From Phaeodactylum tricornutum CCAP 1055/1 (taxonomy: Eukaryota; Bacillariophyta; Bacillariophyceae; Surirellales; Neidiaceae): a DNA stretch of 64,000 nt. Positions 3,806-18,855 of this stretch are shown piece after piece. The notes under the pieces were generated by a model. The model was not told where the DNA came from. It saw nothing but the letters and a program-made list of their open reading frames with translations, and ran no database searches. Both the position numbers and the translations under genes were made by a program. The stretch is from assembly GCF_000150955.2 (NCBI RefSeq), contig NC_011675.1, positions 860,650-924,649 of the forward strand. Reading direction: 5' to 3'. Every line of letters starts with the position of its first letter. Positions within the stretch are counted from its first letter, which is position 1.

Positions 3806-4590
3806 GTCAACTCTCGTTTAGGCAATGGATCCCACCTCGGTGATTGAATGTGTTTGGAGACATCTTCAAAAGATTTTCCACGACGACATCATTCCCTCTT
3901 CATTCCGGAAGTATTTGTTGGGAGAAATGTTAGCGCGCATGAGGGGCCTCGTAGGTCCATTTGTTGATATCGTAAGAAAATACTTTACTTTTTTGTGAGG
4001 TAAATTGTGAAGCTTGCTTTGGAGCTATTACAGTCCAGAGCACTCAACTAGAATAACTCTTTGTGAGTTCATAGTTTCACCGGCTTCGGTGAAGGTAGTC
4101 CTGTTGGGGGGAGAGGCATTGGCACAGTACATGACCGTTTTGTGGTGTGAGGCATTTTGGAAGAAGTAACCTGTTTCCGACTTCCGGACGGCAAACTGAC
4201 AGAGAACGTTTAGTATGAGTACATCATGACATGAATCCAAGAGTGAATGTAAGCAAGTCTGCAATGTTTTATTTCCGGGTCTTTTCGATATTATTTAACA
4301 TAATCAAATGACTATTCAAAACCGCTACGGTGTTGGTATGGTTTCAATACATCTGACATTGGACAGCGCAACAAGTCAAAGTACATCTCGCATACGTCGA
4401 CAGCACCCAAAGCCAGACAGGCCTGACGACATGAAAAGGGTGTTTCAATATAGATTGTAAGGGGTCTCGGCCAACGTAAAAAAAAAGCAAAAAGCGAGAA
4501 TTTTCGTAGCAGCGGAAGGAACATCCCCTTACTTGGCAACAACGGCCCAACCAAGAGCGGCCGAAAACGCCCTTGACCTTTGATTGGAAA
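3806..4590. other. Intergenic, upstream of HSF
   Basis: 785 nt without a gene I can support. Minus-strand open frames here run into the HSF coding region and look like shadows. It contains TTACAGTC at 4028-4035 and a heat-shock-element-like inverted pair at 4498-4505. Confidence 0.5.
4498..4505. promoter_or_regulatory. Heat-shock-element-like GAA-nn-TTC pair
   Basis: GAATTTTC, flanked as aGAAttTTCg, matches the minimal inverted nGAAnnTTCn pair. It sits 85 nt before the HSF start codon. A functional HSE usually needs three or more units, and only two are clear here. Confidence 0.3.
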
Positions 4591-6246
4591 ATGAATGCGT
4601 CTTCCAATCAAACACTCGCACCGAAAAGTGTTGTGACTAACACTGAGTCTAATCAAGCGATGCTGATCCAGCCTGCAAATACCGGAGGATCAACGACTTC
4701 GAACGAGAAAGGCCCGCTTGTTGCCGATCTCGATATTGCTATAGGACGCAACGCTATGCCTGATTTTCTTGGACAGGATTTTCAGGACCGCAATGGACAG
4801 CACCATCCGATTGCGGAGTTCCTTTATCAACTGACTAAAATGCTGACGGATGAAAACTCAGAAATTATCGAATGGTCGGACGGGAGGATCAAGGTTCACT
4901 ATCCTGAACGACTGGAAGGTGAGGTCTTGCAGAAGTACTTTCGCCACTCCAAATTTGCATCTTTTCAGCGCCAGCTGAACTACTTTGGCTTCCGCAAAAT
5001 CGCGGGGAAAGGGAAGATGTCCCCATGCTCCTACGTCAATGAAGCAGCGACGTCCGATATCCGTAGTCTACTTCTTATTAAACGAAAAACCAATGGTTCC
5101 GCTGCTCGAAAAGCTGCGATGCAACAACATTCCCTTGGGTTGCCCGCCTACGACCCGAACTCTACAGCTTCAAGCGGAATGAACTTTCCCGGTCTCTCAA
5201 TGGCCACTGGTAGTTCACATCAGCAGATGTCCCTTCTCAATGGACAGCAGTCCATTGCTAACGCCATGGCTTTGCTCTCGGAAAACGCCCTTCGAGCTGG
5301 CCTTGGTCAATATCAGATGTTGCAACAACAGCAACAGCAGTCAGGAGATAGCTTGGGGAATCACCAGCTTAATCTTTTTGCCCTTCAGCAGCAACAACAA
5401 CAACAACAACAAAGATCCCAGCATCAATTTTTAAGTCTCCAACAGGCACAGCAAGAGCTTCAGCAGCAGCAACAAACATCGAGTTCAAACCAGCGCCTTC
5501 AAGAGCAAAATCAACTTGGGAGCAACCCCCAGTTTGGACAGCATGCTCTCCAACATTTATCGATAGCTCAAGGTCAGCAACACAATGGGTCACAGGTAAC
5601 CAGTAACAACGCTTCGCAGAACATCCCCTCGCTTGAGCAGCTACGTGCCCAACTGGCAGCGAGCTTAGCTAGCCAGCATGGGTCCTTTAATGCCAGTCTG
5701 CTGAACTCTGGTCTGAATATTGCGAACAACCCTGTAGTTGCGGGAGTCAAACTAAATGCATCGCATCAAACTACTAGTGCGAACCCTGCTTCAGCAGCTC
5801 TCAAAGCTTTAACCGCTCAGACTCCTGCTATGCCTGCGACCGCAGCAATGGATGCGGCATCAGCCACTGCTCAGACCAACAGCAATCTGTTTGATTCTGC
5901 AGCCAATCTGAAATCCTTACTGGGTGAACACAGCTCTAACCAGGATGCTCGTCCTAGTGTACCAACGAACTCAACCCCACACGTTTCCAGTGCCTTGTTG
6001 AACCGACTGCCCTCATCAAGTACCATCTTTCCAGAGCTGAGCACGGCCAGTTTTGGGAACCTTCTGGCCAGCTCGAACCGATTGAACTCATTGCTGAGCT
6101 TGAACAGCTTTTTGGGATCTAGAGAACCATCGTTGGCAGATTTTGCGGCTGCCAACAATATGAGCGCTCATCAACTGGCGGCCAATGCCGCAAACGGCAT
6201 GTCTCATTTTGCTTCAGATGCTTCCAAATTTCGAAGCAACCATTAG
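4591..6246 (+). CDS. Heat-shock transcription factor (intronless, glutamine-rich)
   Basis: 551 residues. The first ATG of the frame is 4591. The HSF DNA-binding domain covers about residues 70-170: [20 protein letters not shown], then the recognition-helix region [20 protein letters not shown] and [12 protein letters not shown]. It would bind nGAAn repeats in the nucleus. The domain is followed by a long Gln/Asn/Ser/Ala-rich region with a pure run of nine Gln, typical of an activation domain. A clear leucine-zipper trimerisation repeat is not obvious. There is no intron, unlike the second HSF at 7906-9598, which interrupts the same domain twice. A HSE-like pair upstream could allow autoregulation. 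Diatoms have many HSFs, so the exact paralogue is undetermined. Confidence 0.9.
5386..5412 (+). repeat. CAG/CAA microsatellite encoding nine Gln
   Basis: Two CAG followed by seven CAA codons within the HSF activation region. Other shorter CAG/CAA clusters lie at about 5320-5345 and 5460-5480. Confidence 0.8.
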
Positions 6247-6512: not shown

Positions 6513-7766
6513 ATGGCCGAGGCAGCATCAATAGGAGATGCTTTACAGATTCTCGGTGACCCGTCGGGGAGGCAAGACTCTGACTACTGGAACGCTTGGT
6601 TCAAGGCGGTTTGCCTGAATCCCGAACATCGAGTATTCGAGTGGTACTGCAGTACCAATGAGGTCATCCGAGTGTTGTCCAACTACATTGGAGATGCTAA
6701 CATCCTTTCAGACAGACACAGGATAATGCATCCAGGATCGGGAACGTCGCTGCTTCCAGTAAGACTGTCGCAGATCTACCCGTATCGAAATGTGGTAGTG
6801 GACGTATCCGAAGTCGCGATCGACGAGATGAAACAACTCCACCGGATGCAATTCGAAGGTGTTAACCAAGGAACAAAGGCAGCTTCAGTCGAGTACCGTG
6901 TCGCCAATCTTCTAGAGCCGGCACTCGATTTCGAGGCAAACTCCTTTCATTTTTGGATCGATAAAGGTTTCGTCGATGCTGTTTTTTCAAAGGAAGGAAA
7001 AGAAGTGAACCGCTCACAAGAAGATCATCTTTTTCTTGAAATAAATCGTGTTCTTACGTCGGAAGGCGGAACTGCGCTTATTGTTTCTCTGGCGGAAGAT
7101 CACTCTCTTCAATTAATTGTCAACAATTGGCTGCGGGAGTGTATCGCTTGGAAAGACCGTCTTGATGTTTGGGAGCTCACGCCTGTGAGTGGAGATATGC
7201 CACCGTTCTGCTTCGTGCTGGCGAAAGCCTCTGGCAATGCCGCAAAAAATGGAAGACGCGTAAATTTTCATTACATACACAGTAAAAGCCCCGAAGAGAT
7301 ATATGTGAACAATGCGGAAGAAGGTATTGCGAAAATCGGTTTTCATATTTCACAGTCCAGAGCGGCATTTGCGCAACGCTTGAGTTCTCCCAACAAGCCA
7401 AAGATATCAATTCGAAGGATTTTGGCAATCCTGGAAATTAAGCCGTACGACGCCGATATGGATTTAAAAGTGTTGGCGAACGTCATACAATCTACAGTTT
7501 GGAAAATGGCAGACAAACTAACAATCCTGCCGCAGTGGTATCCCTTTCCAGGTGGAGATCTGCAGAAGATTGTTCCCGTTGCTTACGGCATTTCCAAACT
7601 CCAACTCAAGTGCATTATTCCTGAGGACGATATCGACAAACTTGTTGAAGCAATCAATGAGTGGGAAGGGAATGATCAGTTTAGCGATGGTGTGCAATCG
7701 GTGGACGTGGACTGGGCCAATACAGTGCCTGTTGGCGACGCAATTGAGATTTTACGCAATCGATAG
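6513..7766 (+). CDS. METTL13-like methyltransferase fused to an eEF1B guanine-exchange (EF1-GNE) domain
   Basis: 417 residues in one uninterrupted exon. Residues about 20-235 are a seven-beta-strand SAM methyltransferase of the METTL13/eEF1A-lysine-methyltransferase type: DYWNAWF and FEWY at the N-terminus, motif I HPGSGTSLLP (about 73-82), DVSEVAIDEM (about 97-106) and DKGFVDAVF (about 150-158, DKGTLDA in the family). After a linker, residues about 298-405 match the C-terminal exchange domain of eEF1B beta/delta: ILAILEIKPYD, then IVPVAYGISKLQLKC and VQSVDVDW. The first domain family methylates eEF1A and the second binds eEF1A, so a self-targeting eEF1A modifier is a natural inference. The near-terminal catalytic Lys of eEF1B aligns with Thr, and about 13 extra residues follow, so exchange activity is doubtful. 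It is convergent with HSF at 7906-9598. Confidence 0.85.
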   Translation: MAEAASIGDALQILGDPSGRQDSDYWNAWFKAVCLNPEHRVFEWYCSTNEVIRVLSNYIGDANILSDRHRIMHPGSGTSLLPVRLSQIYPYRNVVVDVSEVAIDEMKQLHRMQFEGVNQGTKAASVEYRVANLLEPALDFEANSFHFWIDKGFVDAVFSKEGKEVNRSQEDHLFLEINRVLTSEGGTALIVSLAEDHSLQLIVNNWLRECIAWKDRLDVWELTPVSGDMPPFCFVLAKASGNAAKNGRRVNFHYIHSKSPEEIYVNNAEEGIAKIGFHISQSRAAFAQRLSSPNKPKISIRRILAILEIKPYDADMDLKVLANVIQSTVWKMADKLTILPQWYPFPGGDLQKIVPVAYGISKLQLKCIIPEDDIDKLVEAINEWEGNDQFSDGVQSVDVDWANTVPVGDAIEILRNR

Positions 7767-7905: not shown

Positions 7906-9598
7906 CTATTTTGACGCAGATTCTCCCTGTTCGTCAGCACTGTTCCCTGTAGCGACTGACGAAGAACTCGGATGTACTTCAGGATTGGGAAAGTCAACGA
8001 AGCTTAATCCGTAAGAGTTTGTATCCGTACTTGGCTGCAAATCCTCATCAATCCCAGGTATCATCGCTAGATCGACCAATGAAGAATTGCGACTCAAGAA
8101 GCAGACGTAGTTGTTATGTGATCCGCTAGGAGAAGTAGTCCGAGATCGTAGTTGCTCCAAGGGCGTAGGCTCTGCCTCAACCTCCACGTCATTGGATTGG
8201 CCTCCGGTCAAAGTATTCTGATAATTACTAGCGAGCTGTGATAGACTGTCTACTGTGGATTCAGGAAAAGTAAATGATGAATGGTTCAAGGCAGCCGAGG
8301 CTAAATCAGATTGGCTGGAGGAGGCAGAAGCGGATGTCATCGCTTCTGCCTTGGAGTTAGTCGAAAGAGCTTGCCTTGGAACACTTTTGCCACATGACGC
8401 TGCAGTATACCCGTGTCGAATTCCACGGCCCACCGCGGTTTGTGCCAAAGCTTGATGTGATGACCCGGGCTTGATATTGGATTGAGAAAGGACGGAAGGT
8501 CTGAGCTTTGCCGTGTCTGGCAGCAAACCAGCTGGTGCGGATGACGCTCCCTTTGATCGATATAGAATACCAGCTAGTACTGGATTGACTAAAGGTGGGT
8601 CATTCGAGGTCGGTTGGATTTTTGGCGACTTGCTGGTAGGGGCATCCCGTTTCTTCCCACTCAGCTTGTCTTTATCTTTTAGCGAAATCGACGCTGTTGT
8701 TTTGCGCTGTAACAAGGGAAAAGGATCGATGTATGTAAGACGGCGTTGCCATGGTCCTTATCGCTCTTTGGTATTCTCTCGCAAATCTTACCTTGATTAG
8801 CAACAGGCTTCCAATGTCCCCTTTGGAATCCTCGTTGACGTACGAACACGGAGCCATCTTGCCTTTGCCCGCCAATTTACGAAAACCAAAATAATTGAGC
8901 TGTCTTTGAAAAGATGCGAACTTGGAATGCCGAAAGTACTTATGTAATACTTGCGCTTCCAGTTTGTGAGGACTGTGTACTTCAATCTTGCCTGTACATC
9001 ACCAAGTCAAAAAAGTTCGAAACCGGGTCAGCAACCTCCTGATTTCTGTTTGAACGTCGCTCTAGGTACGTGATGCTAAGATAGCATGCCGAAACACTGC
9101 CAACTTACCATTTGTCCATTCAATAATATCTCGGTTGTTATCCGTCAGCATCTTTGTTAGCTGATAGAGGAACTCTGGTATCGAGTTGTTCCCTGGAGTC
9201 CCTGGTATTGGTACATTGCCTGCAGCGGTAGACAACATCGGTACCTGTGCTGAAGGTAGCATCAAGGGATTCAAAATCGAAAGTTGATGCCCTGCCGGCA
9301 TTGGTTGCGTGGTGGCCGGCGAGATAACGGAGCTAGTGCTGCTCAGTCCAGCGGAAGAGTGCGGTATGTATTGTTGCGTGGTTGTATCCGTCGGCTCCGA
9401 AGCCGTCTCTGAAGTCGCGTTCATGGTAAAATCCAACGTGTGTTCGTATGCCGGACTTCCGGTATCAGCAATTGGACTAGTCCCACTAGCAAAGTTCGTG
9501 GCGAAAAAGCTATCGAGCGACGAAGTGGAAGATACGGCAACCGGTTTTAGACTGCTTTGACCCGTTCCCTCTGATGCAGTCGTAGAGTTCGCCTCCAT
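7906..9598 (-). CDS. Heat-shock transcription factor (three exons)
   Basis: Exons on the minus strand are 9598-9109, 8991-8792 and 8706-7906, giving 496 residues. Introns of 117 and 85 nt have GTAAGT/GTAAGA donors and CAG acceptors. The splice restores the HSF domain: exon 1 ends with [16 protein letters not shown] and IIEWTNG, exon 2 gives [20 protein letters not shown] plus [12 protein letters not shown], and exon 3 starts RKTTASIS. The N-terminal 120 residues are Ser/Thr/Pro-rich. The C-terminal region is Ser/Gln-rich with acidic ends and probably activates transcription. It has closely the same DNA-binding domain as the HSF at 4591-6246, which lacks both introns. It shares an upstream region with the divergent glutamate-cysteine ligase gene. 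Confidence 0.88.
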
Positions 9599-17700: not shown

Positions 17701-18855
17701 TTAAGGATTTGTCTGGTGTTTTTCAACAATGTCGCCCACTTTGTGAGTAGCAGTACCCCGTTCCAGCGGTGCCGGCTGAGATACGTGAGGTGTCCATCCA
17801 ATGGCGTAGATCACTTGAACCGATGCCTCCACTGCTGGCTCCCCTCCGTCGTCATGTCCTTCTAAAGGAAACATTTCGTCGTAGAGACATGCCGTTGCTA
17901 AAAACGTATCCAGTCCAATACGTTCTCTTCGTTTAATACAAGCATTGCTCTCCCCCATACGTTGCAAGTGCTCCATCAGGACGGCTGCGTTGGGAAACGC
18001 GATCTTCATGGAATCCACGTCGATTGTGGGCAACGCAAAGCCTGCACGTTGTAAAAGAGCGCCCACGTCCGAAAGCTCTACAAATGGTCCGACGTGCGGA
18101 CTGACTCCGCCTTCGCGCTCGATCTCTGCCATCACCATTGCAGCTCGCAGCTCGGGTAACGTAGTACCACCAATCATGGCAAACATAAAGCAGCCATCCG
18201 GTTTCAACACCCTCCGAATTTCTTTGAAAAGTTTCGGTAATTGATTGACCCAATGCATCGACGTTGAGCTAATAACTAGATCGAAAGTCCCATCCGGAAA
18301 CGGCAAAATGGCTTCTTCGTCCAATTCCAGACGGTAAGAATCGCAGCGTTCACTGCCGGGCACGAGGAGATCGGCATCGCGGTACAACATTTCCCCAGCG
18401 GAATCCAGTTGAACTAATTTCCTGACGCCACCCACGCCCCCTTCACCTTGAAGGGCCTCATCGGCACAGATTGCTTTGTAAACATAACCAGGACCGGATC
18501 CCACGTCGAGCGCTAGCGGAAATCCCTCGTCGCGCTTAATGTCGTCTAGGCGATCAATCAAGCGCGAGGCGATTTCTTCCCGAACGTAGTCGTAGTTTGC
18601 GGCATCATCCGACGCATTTCGCCAAGATTGCTGCATCCGGGCTGCATTATTACGCTGTAGTCGCTTGAAACCACGGTCAAACGCATGCGTGGCGCTGGCT
18701 TCGGCGTTCTGGCTACCGTCGCGAGGAACACCGCTGCTACGGCGCCTCGAGATGACAAAGGCACTGGCAGGGGTGGAGAGCAGCAAATCAGCAGAAACAG
18801 CGGCCTTCGATCGATTCCGTATCAGCAAATTTCGAGCTAAAGAAACGAGCGACAT
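17701..18855 (-). CDS. NDUFAF5: NDUFAF5-like mitochondrial methyltransferase-fold protein
   Basis: 384 residues, single exon. The Arg/Ser-rich N-terminus (MSLVSLARNLLIRNRSKAAV) fits a mitochondrial presequence. The SAM-binding fold shows motif I LALDVGSGPGYVY, DLVISSTSMHWVNQLP and IRRVLKPDGCFMFAMIGG, then TLPELRAAM and HVGPFVELSDVG. These are the signature blocks of the NDUFAF5 family, which hydroxylates an arginine of NDUFS7 during complex I assembly in the mitochondrial matrix. FDRGFKRLQRNNAA at about residues 57-70 also matches. Biotin-pathway BioC is a relative, but the HW-N-LP and C-terminal blocks favour NDUFAF5. It is convergent with PUS3. Confidence 0.88.
   Translation of the reverse strand: MSLVSLARNLLIRNRSKAAVSADLLLSTPASAFVISRRRSSGVPRDGSQNAEASATHAFDRGFKRLQRNNAARMQQSWRNASDDAANYDYVREEIASRLIDRLDDIKRDEGFPLALDVGSGPGYVYKAICADEALQGEGGVGGVRKLVQLDSAGEMLYRDADLLVPGSERCDSYRLELDEEAILPFPDGTFDLVISSTSMHWVNQLPKLFKEIRRVLKPDGCFMFAMIGGTTLPELRAAMVMAEIEREGGVSPHVGPFVELSDVGALLQRAGFALPTIDVDSMKIAFPNAAVLMEHLQRMGESNACIKRRERIGLDTFLATACLYDEMFPLEGHDDGGEPAVEASVQVIYAIGWTPHVSQPAPLERGTATHKVGDIVEKHQTNP

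Follow-up and report, generated by a model that had tools for sequence, protein, structure and literature searches.

The gene at positions 6,513 to 7,766 of a 64,000-nucleotide stretch of the Phaeodactylum tricornutum CCAP 1055/1 genome (NC_011675.1, positions 860,650 to 924,649 of the forward strand; hereafter the window) encodes a protein in which a seven-beta-strand methyltransferase domain is followed by EF1-GNE, the exchange-factor domain of eEF1B. Judging from motifs, profiles and modeled structure, this protein is probably a lysine methyltransferase of the eEF1A type that carries its own eEF1A docking domain in the form of a retained exchange-factor domain. Domain searches, the AlphaFold2 model and structure searches all found a single methyltransferase domain and a single GNE domain in the 417-residue product, which is identical to cluster P0001 over its full length save for residue 267 (N here, D in P0001). 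In agreement with an earlier note on this DNA, which knew of no protein with this pair, the literature searched (most subscription journals and preprints lying outside its scope) held no description of the methyltransferase and EF1-GNE combination, of its conservation or of its replaced tail. Both domains are known singly and, as far as we found, their combination had not been described before, although the machine-given names "EF-1beta" and "SAM-dependent methyltransferase" already stand together on clusters P0010, P0011, P0052 and P0058.

Conservation and joint descent of the two domains

The searches gathered 69 related protein clusters in total. The full-length search returned 57 clusters with PF00736 present in every one, and a 10-row profile restricted to the methyltransferase had 55 matches at E ≤ 1, 54 of which also carried PF00736. 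The only cluster lacking the GNE domain, P0069, is a frame of 371 residues that stops within the linker region; it is 36% identical, shares the LGDPSG...YWDEWF start and a related linker, and may be the unspliced or truncated gene of an alga farther removed. No free-standing member of the fused methyltransferase subfamily was found within the size range of 0.55 to 1.75 times the query. The earlier note had described one intronless frame with a methyltransferase followed by EF1-GNE, and it had proposed profile searches and a look for the same order in other genomes; the arrangement was confirmed here and both domains were found in 68 of the 69 clusters, with 2pxx as the top methyltransferase match and PF00736 for EF1-GNE. 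Two of these clusters belong to the named species Mayamaea pseudoterrestris and Epithemia clementina, both diatoms.

Most cluster rows are 33–50% identical to the Phaeodactylum protein, with invariant motifs in both halves. The pairwise distances of the two halves are correlated, with a Mantel r of 0.81 that none of 2000 permutations equaled (the largest reached 0.27; 56 of the 57 rows were compared, one row being dropped). The two halves thus share a line of descent, for which a single fusion event is the simplest account. These same data dispose of the idea that two neighboring genes were annotated as one frame, or that the gene is decaying or a pseudogene: none of the 69 clusters came from eukprot or mmetsp sources, as such an artefact might lead one to expect, but a single-frame pair maintained in 68 of 69 clusters, with its invariant motifs on both sides, leaves this explanation virtually no credence, and we rejected it.

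The methyltransferase half

The S-adenosylmethionine (AdoMet) motifs of the methyltransferase are intact. Motif I is followed by an acidic residue, which is Asp in 54 of 56 rows and Glu in the other 2, and the DK[GA]xxDA motif was present in all 69 clusters. The structure 2pxx was the top match by profile, by Foldseek and by VIA-align, and it was the sole methyltransferase at E ≤ 0.1 when the full-length profile was compared with the PDB (E 0.0031). We take 2pxx (MGC2408) to be human eEF1A-KMT4, the Lys36 enzyme, and DKGTLDA to be the signature of the eEF1A-KMT4 type; in the alignment, the EKGTLDA of 2pxx falls on the family motif DKGFVDA. With eEF1A-KMT4 and the MT13-N domain of METTL13, the diatom enzyme shares the seven-beta-strand fold, YWD and FEWY-type elements at the N-terminus, motif I and D/EKGxxDA, whereas its identity to eEF1A-KMT4 is only about 20% and neither of the two is known to carry a GNE domain. 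According to the available part of one report, MT13-N, eEF1A-KMT4, eEF1A-KMT2 and CS-KMT make up one family, of which the first three act on eEF1A and CS-KMT does not (PMC6109062). By fold and motifs the fused domain resembles the MT13-N/eEF1A-KMT4 kind, and lysine methyltransferase activity on eEF1A is accordingly a prediction that we attach to it.

The source genome (27.45 Mb in 88 contigs) encodes further enzymes of this general kind, namely L016, L017 and L018 from the protein search and L011, L013 and L014 from the DKG-type motif pattern, as judged by eye; L010 and L012 also matched the pattern and were discarded as unrelated frames. Of these genes, L017 matches 2pxx at E 8.7e-32, against E 0.0079 for the fusion-family profile, and so is more probably the direct counterpart of eEF1A-KMT4 or MT13-N. 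The window itself holds another seven-beta-strand methyltransferase at 17701–18855 on the minus strand (Methyltransf_11, 54.7 bits), which is not obviously related.

The earlier note had called the fused domain METTL13-type and had named Lys55 and the N-terminus of eEF1A as the known METTL13 substrate sites. An assignment to the MT13-N/eEF1A-KMT4 kind was supported, but the identification with METTL13 was not. In the parts of the reports available, METTL13 is composed of two methyltransferase domains (PMC6109062, PMC10238732), and it is MT13-C that acts on the eEF1A N-terminus (PMC6109062), so that this target belongs to a domain other than the one fused here. A plain diatom orthologue of METTL13, acting on Lys55 and with an acquired GNE domain, would fit the broad family and the Lys55 context present in diatom eEF1A, yet the protein has a single methyltransferase domain, its best structural match is 2pxx and not METTL13, and L017 lies much nearer to 2pxx; we consider such orthology highly improbable and set it aside together with the Lys55 and N-terminus assignment. 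METTL13 was absent among the matches listed in the structure searches, which proves nothing on orthology.

The GNE half and its predicted docking residue

The EF1-GNE fold is present and its core is fully kept. In yeast numbering, in which Phe163 was placed by its motif, Trp153, Gly164, Lys167, Ser197 and Asp199 are conserved in every one of the 67 aligned fusions; Lys128 is conserved in 62, and the remaining 5 have a gap there (P0015, whose GNE start was not matched by the pattern, was dropped from the GNE alignment and tree). The Phe163 position itself is evenly shared by Tyr (34/68) and Phe (34/68). In the available part of a structural report, Phe163 of eEF1B-alpha occupies a pocket of eEF1A domain 2, and the F163A substitution raises the dissociation constant about 6.5-fold; Efm4 places a phenylalanine in the same eEF1A pocket and is inhibited by eEF1B-alpha (PMC10844748). 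Among the closest known parallels to the fusion is Efm4/eEF1A-KMT2 (METTL10), an eEF1A methyltransferase thought to use the Phe163 pocket through a beta-hairpin; the difference is that in Efm4 a short hairpin mimics the contact, with eEF1B-alpha as an inhibitor, whereas the diatom protein has a whole exchange-factor domain (PMC10844748, available part).

In the GNE tree (52 rows, comprising 34 fusions out of the 67 aligned, 15 ordinary eEF1Bs out of the 60 aligned, and 3 references), the fusions group on one side, apart from the ordinary eEF1Bs, in a split with a Shimodaira–Hasegawa-like approximate likelihood-ratio test (SH-aLRT) value of only 88 at which long branches meet. An origin of the GNE half from a present diatom eEF1B is not supported by this topology. 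The ordinary diatom eEF1Bs share the GNE domain with the fusion and differ in having no methyltransferase, a different core, a near-invariant tail of the SMNVL type and a separate branch of the GNE tree.

A replaced tail at the site of the exchange lysine

Lys205 of yeast eEF1B-alpha, a lysine that human eEF1B has as well, is the catalytic residue that drives nucleotide exchange. In the fusions, QSVD is followed by a tail of the form D-W-x-x-T-x-P, and the Lys205 position, found by ungapped count from Asp199 (Thr404 here; P0069 left out of the tail counts), is occupied by Thr (60), Ser (6), Leu (1) or Pro (1) in the 68 clusters, and 7 of the 68 have a lysine elsewhere within yeast positions 203–207. 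No eEF1B-type catalytic lysine was thus found near the C-terminus of the fusion, nor was one found in the ordinary diatom eEF1Bs. The contention of the earlier note that the EF1-GNE domain is complete applies to the fold and the docking residues, but the tail that bears the yeast exchange lysine has been replaced; relative to the GNE domains of eEF1B-alpha and eEF1B-delta (1f60, 1b64, 2n51), the fusion has DWxxTxPV in place of the Lys205 tail and a methyltransferase at its N-terminus. Nucleotide exchange has likely been lost by the fused GNE domain, as far as its sequence indicates. Binding to eEF1A survives the loss of Lys205, since PDB 2b7b is, by its title, a complex of the K205A mutant with eEF1A and GDP.

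Both ordinary eEF1B genes in the genome, L001 (G000 C19) and L002 (G000 C2), score 75 bits for GNE and end in SMNVL without the lysine. Among the matches listed (P0070–P0189, from a total of 438), 119 of 120 relatives have a Val-Leu end and none has Lys-Ile or Lys-Leu. A hidden splice donor at the SMNVL end was considered and judged unlikely, as L001 and L002 encode the same Val-Leu-stop by different codons and 119 of the 120 listed relatives are alike. The fusion tail is neither of the yeast type nor of the ordinary diatom type, and constitutes a third conserved one. If the ordinary eEF1Bs are working exchange factors, nucleotide exchange must proceed without Lys205, and from these sequences exchange in the cells of this diatom may need no lysine of this type. 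Five ordinary eEF1B clusters (P0078, P0085, P0140, P0160 and P0173) also carry a label of the ribosomal P-stalk (PF00428, or the name RPP1/RPP2) and perhaps have a stalk-like N-terminal part.

These comparisons bear on the alternative of a bifunctional protein, in which the GNE half would still exchange GDP for GTP independently of a lysine, and methylation would be tied to the exchange step. The fully kept core, the lack of Lys205 in the presumably active ordinary diatom eEF1Bs and the retention of Thr or Ser at its position (66/68), as though still functional, speak for such a protein; we nevertheless hold it to be rather unlikely, given a tail that resembles neither the yeast and human one nor the near-invariant Val-Leu one of diatoms, that is 5 to 28 residues longer than that of yeast, and that occurs in a genome with two separate eEF1B genes.

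The likely partner and a proposed mode of action

Two eEF1A genes, nearly identical to each other, occur in the genome; both keep the contexts of Lys36, Lys55, Lys79 and Lys318, and upstream of the first long exon both carry MGKEKVHISLVVIGHVDAGK. Five matches to PF03143 were found in the genome, these two and three that by eye resemble organelle EF-Tu, eRF3 and HBS1; EFL as the GTPase in place of eEF1A was rejected, none being recognised among the five. In the available part of one study, methylation of Lys36 and Lys165 requires GTP and that of Lys55 is slightly lowered by it (PMC10238732); the nucleotide state therefore matters for these eEF1A marks, and a clamp of the GNE kind would either impose a given state or select it.

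We propose that the GNE half would bind eEF1A in the manner of eEF1B-alpha, with Tyr358 in the domain-2 pocket, and would hold it without nucleotide exchange of the yeast manner, because the tail that drives exchange has been replaced. The methyltransferase half would then modify a lysine of the eEF1A so held, most likely a family site in domain 1 (Lys36 or Lys55), or else a new one. Such a fusion would end the conflict of the yeast type, in which free eEF1B-alpha and Efm4 contend for one eEF1A pocket. Tentatively, and with less conviction than the docked methyltransferase itself, we suggest from the sequence that GNE may serve as a non-exchanging clamp, so that eEF1A would be methylated only in the GNE-held shape, the mark would be placed at a single stage of its GTPase cycle, and the protein would be a direct competitor of the true exchange factor for the pocket. 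The coupling of methylation to the GTPase cycle that the earlier note put forward would likewise be a reasonable reading of the fusion.

It is also conceivable that GNE brings the enzyme to eEF1A while the substrate is a nearby protein or RNA, such as eEF1B subunits, the ribosome, tRNA or the release factor GTPases. This would be in keeping with the distance of the fusion subfamily from the eEF1A-KMT4-like L017 and with the presence in the family of CS-KMT, which does not act on eEF1A, but three of the four named family members (MT13-N, KMT4 and KMT2) methylate eEF1A (PMC6109062, available part), and the GNE domain is a second, independent pointer to it; a nearby substrate seems to us quite unlikely.

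Several observations weigh against the docked eEF1A methyltransferase with a non-exchanging GNE domain. The best PDB match of the methyltransferase profile, 2pxx at the E value given above, is weak, covering most of the domain at about 20% identity, and the unrelated archaeal methyltransferase 3dtn follows close behind (E 0.01 over 50 residues). By hhalign, the fusion domain is slightly closer to L018 (score 95.8) and L016 (90.6) than to the eEF1A-KMT4-like L017 (82.1). The ordinary diatom eEF1Bs are also without Lys205, hence its absence in the fusion is no proof of lost exchange. Lastly, 8 of 120 ordinary eEF1B clusters among the matches listed derive from eukprot or mmetsp sources, from which the fusion clusters are missing; lower expression is one reading of this difference. 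From the comparisons of the methyltransferases, the fused enzyme is to be regarded as a divergent branch whose exact site is not readable from its sequence.

Phaeodactylum tricornutum is a genetically tractable model diatom. An enzyme with the eEF1A-binding domain of an exchange factor makes it directly testable whether a given mark depends on a particular stage of the GTPase cycle. The fusion family would, moreover, separate GNE docking from exchange by evolution and not by mutagenesis. The available part of PMC10844748 states that, among eukaryotic proteins, only histone H3 has a greater number of dedicated methyltransferases than eEF1A, and that site recognition by each of these enzymes and the function of the marks are open questions.

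Feature coordinates and genomic neighborhood

Table 1. Features of the fusion gene, in positions of the window
Feature	Positions	Strand	Remarks
Whole gene	6513..7766	+	Single intronless frame, 417 amino acids, ATG to TAG stop
Seven-beta-strand methyltransferase domain	6570..7232	+	Residues ~20–240
AdoMet motif I, H73-P-G-S-G-T-S79	6729..6749	+	H73, G75, G77 and S79 each in 56/56 rows with a letter
Family motif D150-K-G-F-V-D-A156	6960..6980	+	D150, K151, D155 and A156 each in 57/57 rows; 69/69 clusters
Linker	7233..7415	+	Residues ~241–301; two strands and a 24-residue helix (268–291) in the AlphaFold2 model
EF1-GNE domain	7416..7712	+	Residues ~302–400
Tyr358, counterpart of yeast eEF1B-alpha Phe163	7584..7586	+	Tyr/Phe in 68/68 GNE-bearing clusters
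Replaced C-terminal tail (DWxxTxPV...)	7710..7763	+	Residues 400–417; Thr/Ser at yeast position 205 in 66/68; Trp at yeast position 202 in 65/68

Rfam gave no matches across the window, and NCBIfam gave nothing above cut-off. The neighbors of the fusion gene are unrelated to it, with an HSF-type DNA-binding gene just upstream (4573–6246, plus strand) and, farther off, genes for a ubiquitin-activating enzyme and a glutamate-cysteine ligase. Downstream, Pfam assigned no family to the frame at 7906–8715; opposite-strand frames at about 7906–8875 (minus strand) share, by eye, a KGKM.PCSYVNE stretch with the HSF-type gene, and the fusion gene may thus sit between two HSF-like genes.
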